DNA of 21,024 nucleotides, from positions 1 through 21,024 of the IMG/VR virus record IMGVR_UViG_3300031787_000991, one strand, 5' to 3'. The position numbers and the translations under genes were made by a program. The notes below the pieces were generated by a model. That model saw nothing but the letters and a program-made list of their open reading frames with translations, did not search any database and was not told the DNA's origin. Of this stretch, positions 900-18,658 are shown one piece after another; within the stretch, counting starts at the first letter, position 1, and each line of letters begins with the position of its first letter. This DNA comes from a virus.

Positions 900-1643
900 A
901 TGGCTACTTCAGGAACAACAACATTCAGTGTTACTCGCAATGACATTATTGAGTCTTCTTTAAGACTTTTAGGTGTTCTTGAAGAAGGAGCTCAACCTAC
1001 AGCTAATGCTATTGAGAATGCAAGTCTAGTTCTTAACATGATGTTAAAAGACTGGATGACAGATGGTATTAAACTATGGACAGTGGTTGAAATAACTCTT
1101 CCACTAGTAACTAATAAAACATCTTATACAATAGGCCCTGGTGCAGGAAATGATTTAATAACTAATAAACCTTTAAGATTGATTCAATCTTTTTTAAGAA
1201 ATTTATCAGTTAGTCCTTATATAGATTTACCTATGTCTATTCTTTCAGAACAAGAATACAACATCTTAGGTAGTAAGTTTTCTACAGGTACAGTAAACTC
1301 TGTATTTTATAAACCATCAGTATTAAATGGTACTGTTAAAGTATTCTTAACACCTAATTCAAGTACAGCTACAAACTATGAATTACATATGACTGTACAA
1401 CGTCCTATTGAAGATATTACAAGTGCTAATCAAACATTTGATTTTCCATCTGAATGGTATCAATGTTTACGTTGGGGATTAGCTTCTGAATTAGCAGCTG
1501 ACTATGGTCTTCCAATGGATAAACTTGCAGGTGTTATTCAAAGAGCAGAAAACTATAAACAAAGATTAATGGCATGGGACGTGGAATATGCTTCTACATT
1601 CTTCCAACCTGATATTAGAGCACAAGTACAAAGGTTTAGATAA
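900..1643 (+). CDS. P22 gp4-like tail accessory / head-tail adaptor protein
   Basis: This 247-residue protein resembles the P22 gp4 (tail accessory factor, packaged-DNA stabilisation) family. In P22 this protein forms a ring below the portal and seals packaged DNA. The N-terminus reads as the typical adaptor helices: a segment starting TRNDIIESSLRLLG, then ALVLNMML-like and KDWMTDGIKLW. A beta-rich middle and a C-terminal segment FPSEWYQCLRWGLASELA, often seen in gp4 homologues, follow. The gp10-like stabilisation protein comes next in a TAATG overlap, which is the expected neighbour order. The portal and capsid genes must lie elsewhere in the genome. Confidence 0.75.
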   Translation: MATSGTTTFSVTRNDIIESSLRLLGVLEEGAQPTANAIENASLVLNMMLKDWMTDGIKLWTVVEITLPLVTNKTSYTIGPGAGNDLITNKPLRLIQSFLRNLSVSPYIDLPMSILSEQEYNILGSKFSTGTVNSVFYKPSVLNGTVKVFLTPNSSTATNYELHMTVQRPIEDITSANQTFDFPSEWYQCLRWGLASELAADYGLPMDKLAGVIQRAENYKQRLMAWDVEYASTFFQPDIRAQVQRFR

Positions 1644-3406
1644 TGTCAGAAACCTTACGATTACCAATGAACTATGGGGTCGAGTTTCGTAATGATACTA
1701 CAGACAAAGGTTCTAAGATGGTTAACTGCTTTGCAGAAGACTATAATGGAACTATGTATGCAAAGAAAAGACCTGGATATACATCTTCAGGTGTAGACTT
1801 TGGTACTGGTACTGCACAAGGTTTATATACCTATGCTAATAGAATTTATGCAGTATTAAACAATACTCTTTATCGTACTGATTTAACTACCACTACTACA
1901 GTAGGAACACTAACAGGAACTACCACTCCTTGTTATTTTACTAATACCCTTAATGATGGATATTTGTTCTTTCAAAAGGGTGATAAAGGCTATACCTATG
2001 ATGGCACAACTCTAGCTCAAGTTAGAAGTGATGGTGTAGCTTTTATCAGTATTACTGCAGGTGGTACAGGATATGCATCTCCACCTACTGTAACATTTGG
2101 TCCTGAGTGGCAAGCTACTACAGCTTATAATCTTAATGATCAAGTAGCTTATGGAGCTAACTTATATACAGTAACAGTAGCTGGTACTACAGCATCTACT
2201 GCACCTACATTTACTAGTGGATCACAAGTAGATGGTACTGCTACATTAACTTATGCAGGAAATAGAGCTACAGGAAGTTCTTCTATATCAGGTGGTATTG
2301 TAACAGATATTGTTATTACTAATGCTGGTACAGGATACTTAAATGCTCCTACAATTACTATAGCAGCACCTGGTGGTTCAGGTACACAAGCTTTTGCTAC
2401 TTGTACTTTAAATGGATTTCCATCAGGTAATATAGTACCAGGTACAGCTTACTTTGATACTTATGTTTTTGTAATGACAGATGATGGTAAGATCTGGAAT
2501 AGTGAACCTAATGATCCTACTAAGTGGGATGCATTAAACTATATTACTGCTGAAGCAGAACCAGATAAAGGCGTAGCTTTAGCTAAACATTTTAACTATT
2601 TACTAGCTTTTGGTCAATGGTCTACAGAGTTCTTCTATGATGCTGCTCAACCAATAGGATCACCATTATTACCTAACCCTACATTCCGTATTGAGTTTGG
2701 ATGTGCTAATGGTAACTCAGTAGTAGAAATGCAACAAACAGTTGTATGGGTAGCTGTAGGACGTAATACTGGTAGAACAGTTCTTATGTTAGATGGTACA
2801 AGACCTGTACAAATTTCAGATGTATCAGTAGAAAGAATACTAAACCAATCTAGTTTACAAAATGTAAGATCATACTCTTTAAAAGTATCTGGTCATTACT
2901 TTTATGTACTTAACTTATTAGATGATGATTTAACTCTTGTTTGTGATATTAAATCTAAACAATGGTCTATTTGGACATCTTATGTTAATGGGCAAGAAAC
3001 CATATTAGATGGAGTATTTTTTACTTCTTATAATAATGAAGCATATGCACTTGACAATGACAACGGAGTATTGTATAATATTAGTGAGCATACTTATACT
3101 GATTTAGTTGGTCCTATCCAATTTAGAATCAGAACTCCTCTTATAGATGCTAACTCTACTAAACGTAAGTTTATTGGTAGACTAGAAATAGTAGGTGATA
3201 AGATTGGTGCTACCCTCCGAGTACGACATACAGATGATGATTATCAAAACTGGTCTCAATATCGTAATGTTGACCTAAACGCAATGAGAAGTGTCCTTTA
3301 TCAAAATGGTAACTTTAGACGAAGAGCTTATGAATATTTCTGCACAGACAACCAGCCAATTAGACTGCAAGCTTGTGAAATGGACATCGATCCCGGTACG
3401 GCATAA
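1643..3406 (+). CDS. P22 gp10-like DNA stabilisation protein with inserted domain
   Basis: This 587-residue protein resembles P22 gp10, the tail-hub protein that closes the portal channel and anchors tailspikes. The N-terminus (N-C-F-A-E followed by AKKRPGY, about residues 28-46) and repeated Tyr-rich beta-propeller-like strands (YTYANRIYAV, LFFQKGDKGYTYDG) are typical. Residues about 132-256 look inserted: two similar repeats, ITAGGTGYASPPTVTF and ITNAGTGYLNAPTITI, flank a stretch with W156, Y162, V168, Y170 and Y175 whose pattern resembles small carbohydrate-binding modules of phage tail proteins. The propeller pattern resumes at about residue 265. Translation is coupled to the gp4-like gene by a TAATG overlap. 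The last 116 bases overlap the largest possible reading of the next gene. Confidence 0.78.
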   Translation: MSETLRLPMNYGVEFRNDTTDKGSKMVNCFAEDYNGTMYAKKRPGYTSSGVDFGTGTAQGLYTYANRIYAVLNNTLYRTDLTTTTTVGTLTGTTTPCYFTNTLNDGYLFFQKGDKGYTYDGTTLAQVRSDGVAFISITAGGTGYASPPTVTFGPEWQATTAYNLNDQVAYGANLYTVTVAGTTASTAPTFTSGSQVDGTATLTYAGNRATGSSSISGGIVTDIVITNAGTGYLNAPTITIAAPGGSGTQAFATCTLNGFPSGNIVPGTAYFDTYVFVMTDDGKIWNSEPNDPTKWDALNYITAEAEPDKGVALAKHFNYLLAFGQWSTEFFYDAAQPIGSPLLPNPTFRIEFGCANGNSVVEMQQTVVWVAVGRNTGRTVLMLDGTRPVQISDVSVERILNQSSLQNVRSYSLKVSGHYFYVLNLLDDDLTLVCDIKSKQWSIWTSYVNGQETILDGVFFTSYNNEAYALDNDNGVLYNISEHTYTDLVGPIQFRIRTPLIDANSTKRKFIGRLEIVGDKIGATLRVRHTDDDYQNWSQYRNVDLNAMRSVLYQNGNFRRRAYEYFCTDNQPIRLQACEMDIDPGTA

Positions 3407-9200: not shown

Positions 9201-10054
9201 TGAAGCCTATTCAGTTATATGAAGCTATATCTAAAAAAGCTAATATAGCTATGTGGACAGTTCGTGACATGATGTATATGCAACTGATCAATGAAAAGAT
9301 GATGTATGAAGGATTAACTAGAGCAGAAGCTATTAAAAGTGTAGAACGACACATGCCTAGCTATCGTATACCTCATAAAGTCATGGGTTCTAGAGCTTTA
9401 TCTGAAGTCTTACAAAATCCTAATGTTACTGTCTTTAGTAGATACCACTATGGTTTAGTTAACTCATTAAAGAATACTGCAGCAGATATTGCAGCTATCA
9501 GACATGGACAAGCAGGTTTAAAAGACTTTTTACATGGTATGGATACAGCTGCTGCTATTGCTGTAGCTATTGCTGCACTCTATCCATTACAAGATATGAT
9601 TGCTCAATGGTTAACAGGTAATGAAAATGCTACTGTAAGACGTGCTGGTCCTTACCATATATTCCATGCATTACATGGTATAGCAAGTTTAGAAAAAGAT
9701 CCTATGGCGGTTGTTTCTTCATTTTTAACTTTTAACCCTGCCTTACTTGCTGGAGCTCAACTCATAGCAAATCGTAAACTTTATAATGGTCAACCTATAT
9801 ATAACCCAGAGGATAGTGGTGAAAAGATAACAAGTGATATTACAGACTATACTATAGGTCAAGTACCTCAAGTAAGTCAAGCTATTAAAGCTGGTAAAGA
9901 AGAAGATGAAGGCTTTAAGAATTGGATGGCTCGTCAGATTGACGTAGAATCACCTACTCAAGAAACTGTTATGAAACGTGAGAAGATGGTTGGTAGAAAA
10001 GAAAAAGCTGGTCCTCGTAGAACAATGAAGTGGGAAGTTGAACAGGAAGACTAA
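6212..10054 (+). CDS. Large internal virion protein with lambda-R-like transglycosylase domain
   Basis: This 1280-residue protein is likely ejected into the envelope, where it locally opens peptidoglycan for DNA entry. Residues about 35-150 match lambda endolysin R (GH104 lytic transglycosylase): IVGGSTFDDYSKHPG, STAAGRYQITKTTYDRY, LGITDFSPESQDKIALEL and VWASLP. The likely catalytic acid is E41, in the AE pair before the IVGG strand. NPYL recurs at residues 4, 165, 186 and 198. A Gly-rich hydrophobic stretch (about 222-272) may insert into membrane. HEDEH at 517-521 has the form of a zinc-protease motif. The rest is helical, with another hydrophobic run near 1110-1130. The ribosome binding site is AAGGAG. 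It is the T7 gp16 equivalent by size, domain order and position. Confidence 0.78.
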   Translation: MDSNPYLSGIESYSPSKPSSYGKTQEDANIQGYLSNLSKAEKADYNTIVGGSTFDDYSKHPGVVGVTTKEGPSTAAGRYQITKTTYDRYAKKLGITDFSPESQDKIALELIKDNDALEDVKKGNYQAANAKLGGVWASLPSSKYNQPKRSSTWIEENFDTAPSKNPYLEGSFKATDVKTPEPEPENPYLKGLARPPSNPYLNDVPAKSESDISAARSFGKAAGGSAAVGIAATPAMALGAELGATAGTAVGGPVGGLVGGVVGGVGGFLGGAKAVEYAFDKLPDSVKEVIGYDPQTRQKEIEANPETSFAGQLSGNLVLFRPGALKDIVLEGGKKITPAMQRIGMGTAGGLFEAGNEKLAGEDLNAQRIIEAAGFTAVAAKPTAYTKKVNEVVGNTVGNIVPRFNRSLDEFAKTRQSTEEVGANEWTSKWAVPETTETGIPIKVAKIVDAEGNQAVQKDGKPVIARHYRNEDGSSKEIIMDLDEALNRFEDKPWVKAGLDENAFKTPYEYAQFILKHEDEHTRLSFEEWKQMQDPQGDLFAQDKSGVFTEEQLRKDYEHYINRQAYHAVKEDPYVSQPDVEVPKIPKNAAENETWLADAFFALDKGGERDMIIARARHEAATKAGVDTAMRQRWRAYAEGRAELDPNELELFKKYANQELMERKRLIKYAQQKGWTIPTDLESTVTGENVPRIFIPKQGDKFEKALNIISGGEFGGFNPNIARKPGAAMARSVFAGELPNGKRIILQQGSDGSVYQWVNGKAVPFAKMSEVGVFRPGETVKNAFIKEAYEPEIELNTPFTYEKDFQGVVYQRLTELRNFIRANKFLEDIKDSSWFKENAFKTEGKSIPEGFRRPKYLDRVPQFDGYVFKDDIASIIEDFAKVNDMNALTYLSGALIKNMMLNPLPHMMNEGWHLFNARGLSGWVTPAGIYRFAKTGMPALKSVITQDAEFRETLRLGGSLLSARVRNNAFAEEMFAKANREFSQTPEFQSLAKRMAMKPIQLYEAISKKANIAMWTVRDMMYMQLINEKMMYEGLTRAEAIKSVERHMPSYRIPHKVMGSRALSEVLQNPNVTVFSRYHYGLVNSLKNTAADIAAIRHGQAGLKDFLHGMDTAAAIAVAIAALYPLQDMIAQWLTGNENATVRRAGPYHIFHALHGIASLEKDPMAVVSSFLTFNPALLAGAQLIANRKLYNGQPIYNPEDSGEKITSDITDYTIGQVPQVSQAIKAGKEEDEGFKNWMARQIDVESPTQETVMKREKMVGRKEKAGPRRTMKWEVEQED

Positions 10055-10908
10055 TGGCTATACAACTCCCACCAATACCTAACAATCCAATCACTGACGT
10101 ATTCGTATGGCGTGATTGGTTCTATAAAGTATCACAAGCTCTTGTACAACAAGCTTCTATTGCTTGGAGTTCTATTGACTTTACTGGTTCTAATTTACAA
10201 GATATTCAGACTAGACAGCACAACGCTCTACAGAATATACAGGGTGGTATTGCGTCACAATACTACCATCTAAGTCAAGCTCAGTATAATTCTCTTAGTG
10301 CTTTAACTAGTTTACCTATAACAGTACCTAATGGTGGTACCGGAGCTACAACCTTAACAGGATATGTATATGGTAATGGTACTAGTCCTATGACTGCTAG
10401 TACTACAATACCTATGTCTGCTATTGTAACAACATATGGTGCTTTTCAGAATACAGCTGATCAAAACTTAGCTGCTGCTAACACAGCTTATACGGTTGTT
10501 TTTAATACAACTGATGTATCTAGTAATATAACACGAGCTTCTAATCAGTTTACTATATCTACCGCAGGTACTTATAATATACAGTTTAGTTTACAGTTAG
10601 TTAATACAGATAGTCAAGCACATGCTGCTGAAATATGGTTAAGTTTAAATGGTACAGATGTAGCAGGAACAGCTAGTAAATATGATGTTCCTTCTAGTCA
10701 TGGGTCTTCTGATGGTTACCTTATTGCTGTAGCTAACTTTTTAGTTACAGTAACTGCAGGGCAGTATATAGAACTTAAAATAGCTGCTAATCAAGTAGAG
10801 AATGGTACTACAGATGGTGTATATATTGAAGCTTATGCTGCTCAAACTACACCTTATGTCAGACCTTCTATTCCTTCTTCAGTTATTACCATAACTCAAG
10901 TAGACTAG
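10054..10908 (+). CDS. Tail protein with probable C1q-like receptor-binding domain
   Basis: This 284-residue protein begins by TAATG overlap with the large ejection protein. The N-terminal 90 residues include WRDWFYKVSQALVQQAS and GGIASQYYHLSQAQYNSL; the second is a widespread phage tail-fibre segment. A linker with NGGTGATTLTGYVYGNG (about residues 93-110) is also typical of tail fibres. The C-terminal 140 residues are Thr/Ser/Asn-rich beta strands (FTISTAGTYNIQFSLQL, AEIWLSLNGTDVAG, GQYIELKIAANQV) in the order expected for a C1q/TNF-like jelly roll, a common trimeric receptor-binding tip. It is the last structural gene before the convergent junction. It could be the adhesin itself or an adaptor for one. 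Confidence 0.68.
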   Translation: MAIQLPPIPNNPITDVFVWRDWFYKVSQALVQQASIAWSSIDFTGSNLQDIQTRQHNALQNIQGGIASQYYHLSQAQYNSLSALTSLPITVPNGGTGATTLTGYVYGNGTSPMTASTTIPMSAIVTTYGAFQNTADQNLAAANTAYTVVFNTTDVSSNITRASNQFTISTAGTYNIQFSLQLVNTDSQAHAAEIWLSLNGTDVAGTASKYDVPSSHGSSDGYLIAVANFLVTVTAGQYIELKIAANQVENGTTDGVYIEAYAAQTTPYVRPSIPSSVITITQVD

Positions 10909-10924
10909 ATTCATGATTTTACCG

Positions 10925-10953
10925 ATGTTAAAAAGCCTATAGTATAGTATAAT
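10925..10953 (+). promoter_or_regulatory. Possible promoter for pqqA
   Basis: A perfect -10 box TATAAT lies at 10948-10953. Seventeen bases upstream is ATGTTA (10925-10930), which matches only three of six -35 positions. If used, transcription would start near 10960, inside the inverted repeat, giving pqqA a leader of about 75 bases. The -10 overlaps the left arm of the repeat, so it could equally be a coincidence of the TATAG-rich sequence. Confidence 0.35.
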
Positions 10954-11017
10954 ATTACTGTAGCCTAGAAAAATATGTGTTTTTTTATACACAAACTATC
11001 TAGTCTATACTATACTA
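10940..11017 (+). repeat. Long interrupted inverted repeat in pqqA leader
   Basis: TAGTATAGTATA (10940-10951) is perfectly complementary to TATACTATACTA (11006-11017), 12 bp. Inside are two more complementary pairs: CTAGA 10965-10969 with TCTAG 10999-11003, and TGTGT 10976-10980 with ACACA 10989-10993. If transcribed whole it could fold into a long bulged hairpin that ends 4 bases before the pqqA ribosome binding site region. The arms are also internally repetitive (TATAG steps). It may be an RNA hairpin that shields or processes the mRNA, or a DNA operator. Which one is not decided by the sequence. Confidence 0.55.
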
Positions 11018-11034
11018 AACGAAAGGAATATACT

Positions 11035-11106
11035 ATGTGGACTAAACCAGCTGCAACAGAAATGCGTTTTGGCTTTGAAGTTACAATGTACGTAATGAAT
11101 AAGTAA
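11035..11106 (+). CDS. pqqA: PqqA, pyrroloquinoline quinone precursor peptide
   Basis: This 23-codon gene encodes a peptide that begins MWTKPAATEM and ends GFEVTMYVMNK. That is the canonical PqqA pattern: an N-terminal W-x-K-P, R-x-G-F, then E-V-T-x-Y with E15 and Y19. In the PQQ pathway the radical SAM enzyme PqqE, with the chaperone PqqD, cross-links these two side chains; protease, PqqB and PqqC then complete the cofactor. The ribosome binding site AAAGGA (11022-11027) sits 7 bases before ATG. The gene stands alone between the last structural gene and a terminator, and no pqqB-E is in the window, so maturation would need host enzymes. It would be an auxiliary metabolic gene for hosts with PQQ-dependent alcohol or sugar dehydrogenases. 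Identity is strong despite the small size because both cross-linked residues and the flanks are present. Confidence 0.9.
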   Translation: MWTKPAATEMRFGFEVTMYVMNK

Positions 11107-11201
11107 GTTTGTTAAACTACCGTCAAAGGATATAGTAAGTTGGGATTTTTGTAGTTTTCGTACCAACGTGTAATAAACTATCAAATTTGAGACTTACTTA
11201 T
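11099..11201 (+). other. Potentially structured 3' region of pqqA
   Basis: No gene is visible from the pqqA stop to the terminator. Nested complementary segments are present: ATAAGTAAGT (11099-11108, overlapping the pqqA stop) with ACTTACTTAT (11192-11201), ATAGT (11132-11136) with ACTAT (11177-11181), and GTTGG (11139-11143) with CCAAC (11163-11167). TCAAATTTGA at 11181-11190 is a perfect palindrome. The transcript could fold into one long closed structure. It is not a recognisable tRNA. A stability element or small RNA is possible, but short helices can arise by chance in AT-rich DNA. Confidence 0.35.
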
Positions 11202-11206
11202 ACGGT

Positions 11207-11240
11207 AATAAAAAAGGGGCTTTCGGGCCCCTTTATTATT
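11207..11240. terminator. Bidirectional intrinsic terminator at the convergent junction
   Basis: The stem AAAGGGGC (11213-11220) pairs with GCCCCTTT (11227-11234) around a TTTCGG loop. On the + strand it is followed by TTTATTATTT. On the - strand the flank reads as a run of six T, the stronger tract. It lies 106 bases after pqqA on one side and ends at the last - strand gene on the other, so it would stop both converging operons. Confidence 0.88.
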
Positions 11241-11408: not shown

Positions 11409-11543
11409 TTAAAAATTAACTATTGCTCTAACTAAAAATAAATCTACTACAAGAAACCAATCATGATTGTCTTTATCTACTGCTTGGCCGTCCACTAACT
11501 CTATACCAAAGGTACAGCCTTGTATTAAATGAAAGGTAATCAT
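11409..11543 (-). CDS. Small protein coupled to ribonucleotide reductase, 44 aa
   Basis: This 44-residue frame begins MITFHLIQGCTFGIELVDG and ends FLVRAIVNF. Its ATG overlaps the ribonucleotide reductase stop as ATGA, the classic sign of translational coupling, which is the main reason to call it. It has one Cys in a QGCTFG segment and a hydrophobic C-terminal helix or strand (WFLVVDLFLVRAIV). No family is recognised. Position suggests a role tied to nucleotide metabolism, but nothing in the sequence proves it. Confidence 0.6.
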   Translation of the reverse strand: MITFHLIQGCTFGIELVDGQAVDKDNHDWFLVVDLFLVRAIVNF

Positions 11544-13429
11544 GTTTGTACTCCTACAACTTCACAGACACCCGCAGCACAACTAAGTTCTTGAGTGCCT
11601 GTTGTTGTATCTTCTTCCTCTTTTAAGTTACCCCAATCGATTGAAGGGAAACTAGCTACAAAAGAATCATACTGCTCTTTTGTTATTTCTTGATATGGTG
11701 CCTGCTTATACACGTGATCTGAGTGTGGTAAGAGAGACACACCTGAAACATCACTGAAGTTGTTATAAATCCAAGCTCCAATGTTCAAGAATTCATCATC
11801 TTTATAGTATACAGTAATAGACGGATTATGTTCTGTCCAGTTCTTTTGATATACACTATAAAGCTGTAACTGTTCAATTGCATTTGTTTCATTACGAGTT
11901 ACACCAGATTCAGTTCCTTTTTGTGGGAAACTAAATACAGTAATGTCACTCGGTTTAGTTACGTCTGGTTCGTTGGGGACTCCTGCTGACTTGAAGAACA
12001 ATGTGAGCGGGTCTTTATTGTCCATACGTACGGTTCTAATATAATACTGGCTATAAGCAGGATGTATACCGCTAGAGCAACCCACCAATTGGGAAACAGT
12101 ACCACTAGGTTTAACAGTAGTAATAGCAGCAGATTGAGGAATACCAAGCTTCTCAGCCCATACTTTGTTAGTCTCGATAGCATATTCACGTAGCTCCTTT
12201 AACCATTTAATACATTCATCAGTAGGTTTACTGAGTATAGGATGATCCATAATACCTGTCATACTTACACCAAGTAAACGTTCTTCTTCTTGATTACGTT
12301 TCCAGTCACTTCTTAAGTATCTAAAGTTTGTAAGGGTGGATTGAAATGTCCCGATAATTGTTGCGACCCTGACTTTTTCTTTAAGACTAGCAAGGGTATC
12401 ATTCTCTCTGATGACAACTTCACTGAGATTGCAAAGTCCTTTAGATCGCAGGATAATTTCTCCGCAAGGGTTTGTACCATACTCAAAGCCTTCAACATCT
12501 CTTCTTCCGTTAGAGCTTGCTTTTTTTGTAGCTGCAACTCTATTAAATATACCTCGTTCACCACTTTTCGAGTCATATAATGTTCCCCACTCCTTTAAGA
12601 AAATACCTACATCAGGTTTTTCTGTATAGGCTACTGAGTTATTGGCAAGAGCACGTTGCACATCACTTTCCCACCAAGCTCCGTTCTTTGCGTTTCGCAT
12701 TCTATCGTCGGTGAGGTTTGACAAGCTGATAAGAGCAGACCTACGCACACCACCAACAATAACAATATCAGCAACTTTACATACGAGATCATGACATTCT
12801 AAGCTGTTAAGCTTTCTCCCTGCTGCTTTTTTAAAAGTATGAACCGTAAATGAGAACAAGTCCTCGAGAGGCTTAGGGCCAGACGCTCTGCCTCCAAAAG
12901 TCTTAAGCCGAGTTCCTGCAGGTCTGATTCCTGAAGTATCCCATTTAGGCAATCGTCCTGAATATAAGAGGCTAATAAGTTCACGGTATGCACTTGCCCA
13001 TCCAATTCTTGAATCTTTGACTCTAATTGTTGTGTCAGTTTCATGAAATTCCTCTGCTATACTAGGTAAGTTATTAGTAAACTGACGTTCAACACTAAAG
13101 CCTACACCAGTTCCACACATTAAAATATACATCACTTCATCAAAAGCTTTAGGTGAGTCAATAGCTACAAAGCTACAGTTATAACCTGCAATCTCATCAC
13201 GTTCTAAAGCTGGTCCTGCTGTCATTAAACAGCGCATACTAGGCATAACATCTAAGTTATGTATAGATTTATTTACATCATCTGCAGGGAATGTATCTGG
13301 GAATCTATTCTTAAAGAATCCAGTGTATCTGTCTACAGTTTCTTTCCACGTCTCTCTACGGTTCTCCTCAGGAAGCCATCTAGCATATCGGCTTGCATGA
13401 ATAAAACGTTGATAATCTGTCAATTGCAT
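11540..13429 (-). CDS. nrdJ: Cobalamin-dependent class II ribonucleotide reductase
   Basis: This 629-residue enzyme should reduce ribonucleotides to deoxyribonucleotides using adenosylcobalamin. It follows the monomeric Lactobacillus leichmannii RTPR type. Visible hallmarks are GYNCSF with C85 (redox Cys), TNPCGEI with N320, C322 (thiyl radical Cys) and E324, CNLSE with C333 (second redox Cys), and the C-terminal pair C617-x4-C622 that passes electrons from thioredoxin or a similar donor. C322 to C333 and C617 to C622 have the same spacing as C408/C419 and C731/C736 of the L. leichmannii enzyme. The protein is about 110 residues shorter than that enzyme, mainly between C85 and C322. It starts by TAATG overlap with the 58-aa gene. 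Activity depends on host B12 supply. Confidence 0.93.
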   Translation of the reverse strand: MQLTDYQRFIHASRYARWLPEENRRETWKETVDRYTGFFKNRFPDTFPADDVNKSIHNLDVMPSMRCLMTAGPALERDEIAGYNCSFVAIDSPKAFDEVMYILMCGTGVGFSVERQFTNNLPSIAEEFHETDTTIRVKDSRIGWASAYRELISLLYSGRLPKWDTSGIRPAGTRLKTFGGRASGPKPLEDLFSFTVHTFKKAAGRKLNSLECHDLVCKVADIVIVGGVRRSALISLSNLTDDRMRNAKNGAWWESDVQRALANNSVAYTEKPDVGIFLKEWGTLYDSKSGERGIFNRVAATKKASSNGRRDVEGFEYGTNPCGEIILRSKGLCNLSEVVIRENDTLASLKEKVRVATIIGTFQSTLTNFRYLRSDWKRNQEEERLLGVSMTGIMDHPILSKPTDECIKWLKELREYAIETNKVWAEKLGIPQSAAITTVKPSGTVSQLVGCSSGIHPAYSQYYIRTVRMDNKDPLTLFFKSAGVPNEPDVTKPSDITVFSFPQKGTESGVTRNETNAIEQLQLYSVYQKNWTEHNPSITVYYKDDEFLNIGAWIYNNFSDVSGVSLLPHSDHVYKQAPYQEITKEQYDSFVASFPSIDWGNLKEEEDTTTGTQELSCAAGVCEVVGVQT

Positions 13430-16190: not shown

Positions 16191-16705
16191 TATACTGGAA
16201 TGTCATCCTCTAAATCATCAAAGTTAATTTCCTTTGTTGGATTAGATTCTTTAGCAAATACATAAGCTTCAAACTCTTTAGCAGTTGCAATAACATCAGC
16301 TACTTTAGAGCCTTGACCTAATAGATCTACCGCAGTGGAAAGACTGCTCTGACGAATGATATAGACTTGTCTAGCTGCTCTTTCTTCTTTAGTTTCGTAG
16401 TTACTTCCTGTAACTCTACCGCCTGTTGCTGGTTTTGATTCTGGTGTAGCCACTGATCCATCTCCTCCAATACCTGTCCATTGCCAATATCCATTTGCAT
16501 CCTTTGTTGTAGTTACATTTACTTGAGCACCTTTAGTTAATTCTTTAATATAATTAAAGACAGAAGGATTACTAAAAGACATAAGCTTTTTATTAGCTAC
16601 TTGTCCTTGTTCATTCTTGTATGTAACTTCGATAGATTGATATGATCTACCATTCTTTGCTGCATGTGTATTGGGTGAACCTACGTCTACAATATTAATT
16701 AACAT
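16190..16705 (-). CDS. ssb: Single-stranded DNA-binding protein
   Basis: This 171-residue protein has an N-terminal beta-rich OB-fold-like part (SIEVTYKNEQGQVANKKLM, GYWQWTGIGG), a flexible Gly/Ser/Pro middle (about residues 85-105), a helical part, and an acidic end DDLEDDIPV. That end imitates the D-D-D-I-P-F tail of bacterial SSB, which recruits replication partners. It lies between polymerase and exonuclease genes, as expected for a T7 gp2.5-like role. The OB fold is inferred from pattern; the acidic tail is direct evidence. The start overlaps the end of the polymerase C-terminal gene by 11 bases. Confidence 0.82.
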   Translation of the reverse strand: MLINIVDVGSPNTHAAKNGRSYQSIEVTYKNEQGQVANKKLMSFSNPSVFNYIKELTKGAQVNVTTTKDANGYWQWTGIGGDGSVATPESKPATGGRVTGSNYETKEERAARQVYIIRQSSLSTAVDLLGQGSKVADVIATAKEFEAYVFAKESNPTKEINFDDLEDDIPV

Positions 16706-17414
16706 CTATTATCTCCATGTTACCCCATGTTGGTCCTACTTGACACTCTACCCTCATGGGAAGGTTAAATTCTACTCCAAATAACTTCTTAAAGTTAAGA
16801 GGAATATCCGTAAAACATTGATCAACAATCTTTACTATACTAATATTATCGCATACTTTAGAATCAAAGTCAACTATAATAGAATCATGTACAGTATTGA
16901 TAAGCTTGATCTTTTCCATACCTTTAAGTCTATTAGCTAAAGATACTCTTGCTATAGCCATCAGGTCCGCACCAAGACCTTGAACTGGGTAATTCAAGAT
17001 CTTAGTACGAGGCCATTTGACTTTGCCATACTTTACTTCTGGCTCATAGTTATAAACTCTACCTGTCGGCATCGTTATCTTTCTGTCTTTCATAGCTGTT
17101 GCCACAATCTTTTTATGCCATTCACCAAGTCCCGTATACTTGCTATAGAACTCATCAATAACATTTTGCCAGAATGATTCCGAATTAGATACATCAGTAA
17201 AATTAGTATCGTTAGCGTAACTATAGGCGGAACCTCCATAGATAAGCCGAAACACAAAAGTTTTAGCAATAAGACGAGAAGGTAAACCAAAACGGTTCTG
17301 ATTATCAGTATGCTGATCGACATTGTTCCATATCTCGTCATACGCTGTTTTGTCTTGACTTAAATAAGAAGCACATACCCACTCAAGAGCTTTGGCATCT
17401 GCCTGTAATAGCAT
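16695..17414 (-). CDS. DNA polymerase family A, C-terminal part (motifs A, B, C)
   Basis: This is the catalytic half of a Pol I/T7-type replicative polymerase, 239 residues from the ATG at 17414. It opens inside the motif A strand: MLLQADAKALEW, with catalytic D6. Motif B is RLIAKTFVFRLIYG (K51, F55, Y59, corresponding to K758, F762, Y766 of E. coli Pol I). Motif C is TVHDSI (H176, D177). The ribosome binding site AAAAGG sits just before the start. It lacks the exonuclease, thumb and first palm parts, which are encoded by the separate gene at 17498-18658. The two products must assemble non-covalently. The reading frame differs from both the N-terminal gene and the 40-codon gene between them. 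Confidence 0.9.
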   Translation of the reverse strand: MLLQADAKALEWVCASYLSQDKTAYDEIWNNVDQHTDNQNRFGLPSRLIAKTFVFRLIYGGSAYSYANDTNFTDVSNSESFWQNVIDEFYSKYTGLGEWHKKIVATAMKDRKITMPTGRVYNYEPEVKYGKVKWPRTKILNYPVQGLGADLMAIARVSLANRLKGMEKIKLINTVHDSIIVDFDSKVCDNISIVKIVDQCFTDIPLNFKKLFGVEFNLPMRVECQVGPTWGNMEIIDVN

Positions 17415-17505
17415 CACATTCCTTTTGTTTTTCTGCTACTTTGATTTGTTCAAATGCTTGTTCAGCACCTTGTTCGTTAAACTCTTGTACATAATCTTTA
17501 CTCAT
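17383..17505 (-). CDS. 40-residue gene between the two polymerase halves
   Basis: This 40-codon frame begins MSKDYVQEFNEQGAEQAFEQ and continues IKVAEKQKECDAITGRCQSS. The ATG overlaps the stop of the polymerase N-terminal gene by 8 bases (ATGAGTAA), with GGGAG in front as ribosome binding site. Its last 32 bases overlap the start of the polymerase C-terminal gene, whose ribosome binding site lies inside it. The peptide is hydrophilic, Gln/Glu-rich and probably helical, with two Cys six residues apart. I recognise no family. It could be a scaffold joining the halves, a remnant of a mobile intron or intein, or simply a coupling frame. Confidence 0.6.
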   Translation of the reverse strand: MSKDYVQEFNEQGAEQAFEQIKVAEKQKECDAITGRCQSS

Positions 17506-18658
17506 ATCTACTCCCGAATAATGTTTTAATTTCGCCATCAAAGTTTTGTAGGTTTGGTTTACTTGAACTAAGTCTACCTGTTCTAGCCACACATTGATTA
17601 AGCTGTCCGTGTAATCTTCCTTCATGCCAGTTCATCTCCTTTCTTAAATCTACCAGTCCTTTGTAGTAAGCTGTTAAACGTTTCTCTAGTGTAGCACGTT
17701 TTAATAATACTTCAACTAGATCTTTAGCATATTTACTTCTAGTCTTTAAAGACTTTAAGGTCTGATCATCTGTTGAAAAGAAACCTTCTTTAGTTAACTC
17801 CGATCCTTTAATCGGGTTAATAAGTCTAGGGAATGTTATTTCATGTTCGACCCACCTTTCTTTTGTTTGTCCTTTTCTTTCTCCCGTTTTAAACACACCA
17901 ATAGCTTCTCTCCTCCTGACTTTAATAATGCCGCCATAGAGAAGACTAGATACATGCTCCGTGCTATTAGGATTAAACTCCACAAGGTCATGATATTCCA
18001 TAAGGATTTTATCAATGACCGCAATTTGATCTTCAAGTTCTGTAGCCAAAATAGTACTGCTATTCTCATCAAATAAAAGTCCATTAAATTCCATCTCCTG
18101 TAATATAACTAAGTCTTGGTTATGCAAACTAATAAGTCTTTGCATGTTCTTTGCGGATGACGCAAATTCTTCCATTTGTTTCTCATATACTTTTTGCGTT
18201 AAAAACAAATCTTGTTTAAGATAATCTTCAAGTAAGTCTCTTGGTATCTTGTCAGTATCTACCCCATTCTTCCAATATTCAGTAGCAATAACGTCAAGTT
18301 TACTACCCAGATCATAATAAGCAGCGACACTATTGAGACTTGGATAGGGATATTGTTGGCCCGTAAGTATAAAATGTACCAACTGACAATCCCAAACACG
18401 TTTACCCATAAAATTAATTCCATACTTCCGTATCCAATGCAAATCAAATTTGATATTAAAACCAACCAATACATCTGCCCCATTAACTTTGGCTTGTACT
18501 TCTTCCAAACGAGTTCGATAAGGTTGATCATCATACTCGATGCTATATACACTAGCATCAGTATCAAGCAAACCAATATAACAAAGCTTATTAGTTTCGT
18601 CAAAAGGATTCCCTTTGTTACTAATAGTTGTTTCAACATCTAGTATTAAGCTGCGCAA
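17498..18658 (-). CDS. DNA polymerase family A, N-terminal part (exonuclease, thumb)
   Basis: This 386-residue protein carries a 3'-5' proofreading domain: ILDVETT (D7, E9), VGFNIKFDLHW (N68, D72) and YLKQDLFLTQ (Y146, D150). The thumb and palm entry follow, with FNPNSTEHVSSLLYGG and the family A motif CVARTGRLSSSKPNLQN (about residues 359-375). It stops after TLFGSRYE, where an intact polymerase would run on into motif A, now in a separate gene. The start codon is TTG, supported by AAAGGA 7 bases upstream and by immediate entry into the first exonuclease strand. Proofreading residues are all present, so this half looks functional. Confidence 0.9.
   Translation of the reverse strand: MRSLILDVETTISNKGNPFDETNKLCYIGLLDTDASVYSIEYDDQPYRTRLEEVQAKVNGADVLVGFNIKFDLHWIRKYGINFMGKRVWDCQLVHFILTGQQYPYPSLNSVAAYYDLGSKLDVIATEYWKNGVDTDKIPRDLLEDYLKQDLFLTQKVYEKQMEEFASSAKNMQRLISLHNQDLVILQEMEFNGLLFDENSSTILATELEDQIAVIDKILMEYHDLVEFNPNSTEHVSSLLYGGIIKVRRREAIGVFKTGERKGQTKERWVEHEITFPRLINPIKGSELTKEGFFSTDDQTLKSLKTRSKYAKDLVEVLLKRATLEKRLTAYYKGLVDLRKEMNWHEGRLHGQLNQCVARTGRLSSSKPNLQNFDGEIKTLFGSRYE

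Follow-up and report, generated by a model that had tools for sequence, protein, structure and literature searches.

A free-standing pqqA gene in a phage with a very likely Methylophilaceae host, and its occurrence among other methylotroph viruses

Cyanophage psbA and similar AMGs replenish one consumable host part during infection. With regard to PQQ, one phage pqqA, carried by VP_266 from Lake Baikal, was read in 2020 as an AMG for methanol oxidation (PMC7678222), and pqqA was listed among reservoir viral genes in 2026 (PMC13188868). A sequence-only reading of the DNA analysed here could not tell whether related phages with pqqA had been reported; because of these two reports, phage pqqA as such has to be regarded as already known. 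Zobellviridae-like phages of OM43 have been divided into groups I and II, of which group II joins MEP401-type replication to a different morphogenesis module, and the auxiliary gene list of the paper describing them does not contain pqqA (PMC10580990).

The window, by which we mean the whole 21,024-base stretch of viral DNA that was analysed, contains an exact 23-codon frame with a stop codon (11035..11106, + strand) encoding the 23-aa PQQ precursor peptide MWTKPAATEMRFGFEVTMYVMNK. The sequence-only reading had seen the hallmarks of PqqA in this frame, including E15 and Y19, and had proposed a profile search as a check. That search supports it clearly, with full-length matches at 42.4 bits to Pfam PF08042 (cut-off 21.1) and 40.4 bits to NCBIfam TIGR02107 (cut-off 20), both curated cut-offs being well exceeded. 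The E-x3-Y spacing of the Glu and Tyr that give the PQQ atoms is present in the peptide, and the residues cross-linked by PqqE are E15 (GAA, 11077-11079) and Y19 (TAC, 11089-11091, + strand). Many Methylophilaceae PqqA copies are letter-for-letter the same peptide, and a six-frame search of the entire record found this frame as its single PqqA. The gene is also, as expected of a pqqA, short, self-contained and preceded by a signal for the start of translation; adjacency to pqqBCDE, which is usual in bacteria and not strictly defining, is absent for viral pqqA in the stretches read. No solved structures of PqqA were found. On these sequence criteria the identity of 11035-11106 as a true PqqA gene is directly observed and confirmed, and cross-linking by PqqE with PqqD and conversion to PQQ are inferred for the phage peptide only from its identity to host PqqA.

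The phage setting is likewise a matter of direct observation, in keeping with the initial description of structural genes on the left of pqqA and replication or nucleotide genes on its right. The left side carries an endolysin, the packaged-DNA stabilisation or head closure protein Hc3 (1643..3406, + strand), which served as the marker of this phage lineage, a protein of the DNA-ejection type and a virion protein of 1280 aa that includes a lysozyme domain, and the structural (late) module ends with the upstream neighbour of pqqA (10054..10908, + strand). Convergent on the right are a class II (B12-dependent) ribonucleotide reductase as the downstream neighbour (11540..13429, − strand; 56% identical to that of MEP402), an exonuclease, a split DNA polymerase A (16695..18658, − strand), a helicase and a primase. 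The polymerase lies in two frames, as in the OM43 phage MEP402 (58-70% identity); the frames, 16695-17417 and 17498-18658, have a small ORF between them, and MEP402 is organized alike (gp13, gp14, gp15). With phage genes on both sides of a host-like metabolic gene, this part of the AMG definition is met. Five relatives that cover the site have pqqA in the same place, 9.2-9.5 kb past the start of the head-closure gene.

Nine right-hand proteins are collinear with MEP402 at 43-70% identity, and the endolysin is 66% identical to that of P19250A, a phage of LD28. The MEP401-type replication module that characterizes OM43 phage group II is present, and the TerL and MCP genes fall outside the 21-kb window. 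Because of the protein matches to MEP402 and P19250A and the group II-like arrangement, the host is very likely a Methylophilaceae methylotroph; it is inferred, as are the hosts of most other contigs with pqqA.

The ribosome-binding site attributed to the gene is real, since a Shine-Dalgarno sequence (AAAGGA, 11022..11027, + strand) stands 7 nt ahead of the ATG, and the translation signals are seen to be intact. The attributed terminator exists as well (11213..11234, + strand; terminator scan, two found against 0.1 expected), but it begins 107 nt beyond the pqqA stop codon and is a bidirectional intrinsic terminator that also serves the convergent replication operon. A TATAAT (10948..10953, + strand) could be the −10 box of a promoter belonging to pqqA itself; it is aligned and kept in the five syntenic relatives and is unproven. 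A full sigma-70 promoter was not scored at this position by the promoter scan, which overall did not exceed shuffles (4 found against 2.7 expected), so the claim is limited to the −10 box. A 99-nt foldable 3′ element (11107..11205, + strand) is 88-91% identical to sequence 3′ of pqqA in four other phage loci (L688, L697, L071 and L091). It folds better than shuffles when the terminator is included (z −2.98), through a stem of ACCGT...AGTAAGT with ACTTACT...ACGGT, and may represent a small RNA or a 3′ end that confers stability; Rfam gave no meaningful match to a known structured RNA near pqqA. The leader (10934..11021, + strand), in which an inverted repeat (TAGTATAGTATA ... TATACTATACTA) surrounds a small hairpin, is specific to the window. 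Its hairpin was rejected as a functional element, being unconserved in relatives and not significant over the transcribed part (z −1.1).

Relatives of the 23-aa gene were sought by degenerate sequence-pattern scans of IMG/VR. The GFEVTMY pattern returned at least 120 loci, with an in-frame PqqA in all 120 matches listed, and a second pattern for a different PqqA sub-type returned 112 new loci and 8 already seen, again with PqqA in 120/120; some of the latter loci lie in contigs of 172-215 kb. Since every listed match of each pattern was a PqqA, the window gene is far beyond chance. In the 232 viral loci read, which are partial, no match to PqqB, PqqC, PqqD, PqqE or methanol dehydrogenase was found. 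A Shine-Dalgarno sequence precedes 120 of the 120 viral pqqA genes examined from the first scan (at least 120 loci) against 28 in shuffles, a terminator lies no more than 150 nt downstream in 60 of 115 genes, where shuffles give 2.8, and TATAAT occurs in 40 of 120, compared with 15.9 in shuffles and 3/129 host genes. Because of this enrichment, viral pqqA genes look like independent transcription units.

Presence among relatives is patchy. The gene occurs in 23 of 50 longer relatives drawn from five lineages, and in 16 of the 28 that reach at least 30 kb, so that universal carriage by methylophages is not supported. No copy was detectable in one relative with 97% TerL identity to P19250A or in another with 95% to MEP402. 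Because completeness values are lacking for the relatives, some absences may reflect truncation.

Other PqqA types were also encountered in viral contigs. A pattern for the alphaproteobacterial type (GMEVTSYES) matched one contig only, L704 (MKWSAPIVQEVCVGMEVTSYESAEIDTFN). A Klebsiella-type free-standing pqqA (MWKKP..D.RLGLEVTLYISNR) with a TATAAT-like box and a terminator was seen in L757, L715, L724, L744, L755, L767, L776, L806 and L814, and this viral type had no match in E. coli genomes. L757 (11244-11510, pqqA start 11064) is a lambda-like prophage contig of ~40 kb with a J-like 1075-aa protein. Its pqqA lies at the edge and adjoins the start of a TonB-dependent receptor resembling the PQQ importer PqqU/YncD. 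The pqqA of this group could be either prophage cargo or chromosomal flank.

Four different PqqA queries of INPHARED (50,697 records) each returned the same twelve records, namely nine Methylophilales/Methylophilaceae isolates (P19250A, Venkman, MEP301, MEP401, MEP402 and four Melnitz), one uncultured phage and two records named 'Acinetobacter phage MD-2021a'. One of the last two was opened (CAKLQF020000010.1) and rejected as a phage; it is a mislabelled bacterial chromosome with polyphosphate kinase and a whole pqq operon. Beyond the remaining ten, the four queries found no real phage with PqqA among the 50,697 records. A methylophage without pqqA could have been missed because INPHARED cannot be listed by host. 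That the gene spreads over unrelated methylophages is observed directly: the TerL and MCP of P19250A, MEP301, MEP402 and Venkman have no detectable mutual similarity, and Melnitz is a T4-like phage.

The mislabelled record, together with some prophage contigs of ~40 kb that carry pqqA at an edge, raises the question of whether pqqA contigs are bacterial fragments misclassified as viral. For the window this is refuted by the phage modules on both sides of the gene, and for the isolates it is rejected as well. As nine cultured-phage records carry pqqA and pqqB-E are absent from all 232 viral loci read, we regard misclassification as scarcely conceivable.

In the ten INPHARED phage records pqqA is unannotated or lies under an opposite-strand hypothetical ORF, none of the phage records opened has a pqqA annotation, and PHROGs v4 contains no family matching the peptide. 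The expectation that gene callers would overlook such a gene thus proved correct, and a 23-codon gene slipping past gene callers and PHROGs would account for the trait having escaped notice. pqqA goes unmentioned in the open-access papers on Venkman, MEP301, MEP401/402 and Melnitz. In Melnitz (L318, 6101-6304) the gene, MKWTKPVAQEMRFGFEVTMYIMTR, lies just ahead of a tRNA-Leu gene, beneath an opposite-strand hypothetical ORF.

The AMG definition further asks that a gene be maintained by selection for its product, and this is met by low pN relative to pS and by the locus being kept in five relatives. Among 100 distinct viral pqqA genes of 69 nt, mean pS was 0.58 and mean pN 0.096, and W2, P5 and R11 were invariant. 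The invariance of G13 to Y19, including E15 and Y19, is no evidence because it was fixed by the search pattern. As far as these alignments go, the viral peptide is preserved by selection, and the purifying pattern itself is directly observed. Exchange with hosts appears to have been repeated. On the pqqA gene tree at least 31 switches between the virus and host labels are needed, against 71-87 in shuffles, which fits repeated exchange, with the reservation that 72 nt are too short for a firm tree.

These same data bear on whether host-derived pqqA DNA is merely a passenger, retained because it offers a site for integration or recombination and not for its product. Such a role would suit the window gene, which is identical to the nearest host gene at 69 of 72 nt with an exact stretch of 51 nt, and it would suit the position of pqqA beside recombination genes in Venkman and MEP301. 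However, viral copies have on average diverged from host copies at synonymous sites (pS 0.61) with the peptide kept (pN 0.091), and only two nucleotide sequences are exactly shared between the viral and host sets. Moreover, all 120 listed copies of the first scan are complete genes with a Shine-Dalgarno sequence, and no integrase was seen in the window. With the peptide conserved despite synonymous divergence, a role as attachment site or passenger is the less likely account, and we consider it improbable.

On the host side, PqqA was found in 120/120 sampled Methylophilaceae genomes, in 1-12 copies each, PqqE exceeded its cut-off in 112 of the 120, and a PQQ alcohol dehydrogenase did so in all six genomes checked. 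The host family is thus observed to hold pqqE and many pqqA copies, and pqqB-E are observed to be missing from the phage stretches read. OM43 strain LSUCC0665 has three pqqA far from pqqE (pqqA at 52 kb and 875 kb, pqqE at 765 kb), and because of these distant copies the action of PqqA in trans is taken to be normal in Methylophilaceae. OM43-type hosts have pqqA apart from pqqBCDE, in part as tandem pairs, and tandem pairs ~200 bp apart were seen in L145, L148 and L205. A PQQ producer grown on methanol likewise has five pqqA, three of them separate from operons (PMC9851590). In Gluconobacter, overexpression of pqqA alone raised PQQ, second only to pqqB, according to the account of Wang 2016 given in PMC7936290.

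The best-supported function of phage pqqA is substrate supply, with the biochemistry inferred. We consider it probable that the window gene, a true pqqA, is an AMG of a lytic-type phage of Methylophilaceae methylotrophs, feeding the host PQQ pathway and methanol dehydrogenase during infection. Phage-made PqqA would enter the host's own PQQ pathway in trans, where PqqD would bind it and PqqE would cross-link E15 to Y19, after which proteases together with PqqB and PqqC would complete PQQ. The cofactor would then serve the host PQQ-dependent methanol dehydrogenase, so that methanol oxidation and energy supply could persist during infection. A single small peptide may suffice, since the cell already contains PqqBCDE, which act catalytically, but each PQQ made costs one PqqA molecule. 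Once the phage has shut down the expression of host genes, a shortage would be expected first for PqqA. It is inferred that the gene is expressed during infection, that PqqE modifies its product, that PQQ rises, that host metabolism is altered and that the phage benefits.

The opposite effect was raised by the sequence-only reading, which suggested a decoy for PqqE/PqqD. Phage PqqA would occupy PqqD/PqqE and lower PQQ synthesis, slowing the host pathway or a PQQ-dependent process harmful to the phage. An excess of a short substrate peptide could indeed saturate these proteins, and no measurement excludes it. Yet the phage peptide is the normal host substrate, identical to host PqqA with both cross-linked residues retained, which points to turnover into PQQ and not to an enzyme block, and for this reason a decoy is the less likely role. 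Loss of a cross-linked residue would be expected in some lineages of decoys, a class left unsampled because the scans required E15 and Y19. Overall we hold the decoy to be quite improbable.

The recipient of the supply could also be a methanol dehydrogenase encoded by the phage, an idea put forward for Baikal VP_139/VP_266. VP_266 was reported with both pqqA and a methanol dehydrogenase gene (PMC7678222). The lack of any such homolog in the 232 partial viral loci, and of any MDH annotation in the complete P19250A, MEP301, MEP402 and Venkman records, makes this explanation very doubtful for the phages considered here.

Supply to the host enzyme remains our preferred reading, and several points count against it. 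The hosts already have several pqqA copies, and limitation by PqqA there is only assumed. The presence of pqqA is patchy, with some relatives possibly incomplete. Cells may turn PQQ over only slowly, many bacteria can take it up from outside, and an OM43 medium contains it, so a gain for the phage in the course of a single infection is not self-evident.

Beyond the window, we lean towards the view that phages of PQQ-making methylotrophs commonly carry a free-standing pqqA as a trait specific to their host range, that repeated host exchange has spread it over unrelated lineages, from small podoviruses to contigs of >170 kb, that it has been overlooked so far, and that infection of methylotrophs widely targets PQQ supply and hence methanol oxidation. 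If this is true, phages of very abundant methanol consumers of seas and lakes commonly bring the consumable part of the MDH cofactor pathway. The cultured MEP401/402, Venkman, Melnitz and P19250A with their hosts offer a testable handle on phage steering of methanol oxidation, and pqqA is a possible host marker for uncultured phages. As pqqA shows, genes of fewer than 30 codons escape phage annotation.

The window gene can be placed against several known systems. It shares its length, W-x2-P start, GFEVTMY core and E-x3-Y spacing with the PqqA family (PF08042, TIGR02107); it differs in being phage-encoded and alone, without pqqBCDE, whereas the biochemistry of the family was shown for bacterial copies. 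VP_266 is, like the window phage, a predicted Methylophilaceae-infecting phage contig with pqqA, described as one population with no claim of a general trait (PMC7678222). It is T4-like and has a methanol dehydrogenase gene, whereas the window phage is an MEP401-type recombinant with no MDH in 21 kb. The module arrangement is that of OM43 phage group II, whose TerL and MCP have been described as relatives of the Cyanophage PP and phage hairong proteins (PMC10580990). The OM43/LD28 isolates P19250A, Venkman, MEP301, MEP401/402 and Melnitz have pqqA with 77-96% peptide identity to that of the window, and MEP402 also shares the replication module, but the gene is unannotated in their records. Relative to these systems, what seems new is the breadth of the trait, its presence in cultured methylophages and its independence from MDH, which appear unreported in the open-access literature (the P19250A paper excluded). 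The apparent restriction of pqqA to methylotroph phages in reference records likewise appears unreported in that literature. Compared with cyanophage psbA, the part brought by pqqA is a peptide substrate that is turned into a cofactor and not an enzyme or photosystem subunit, which would make phage pqqA a clear case of an AMG with a peptide substrate instead of an enzyme.
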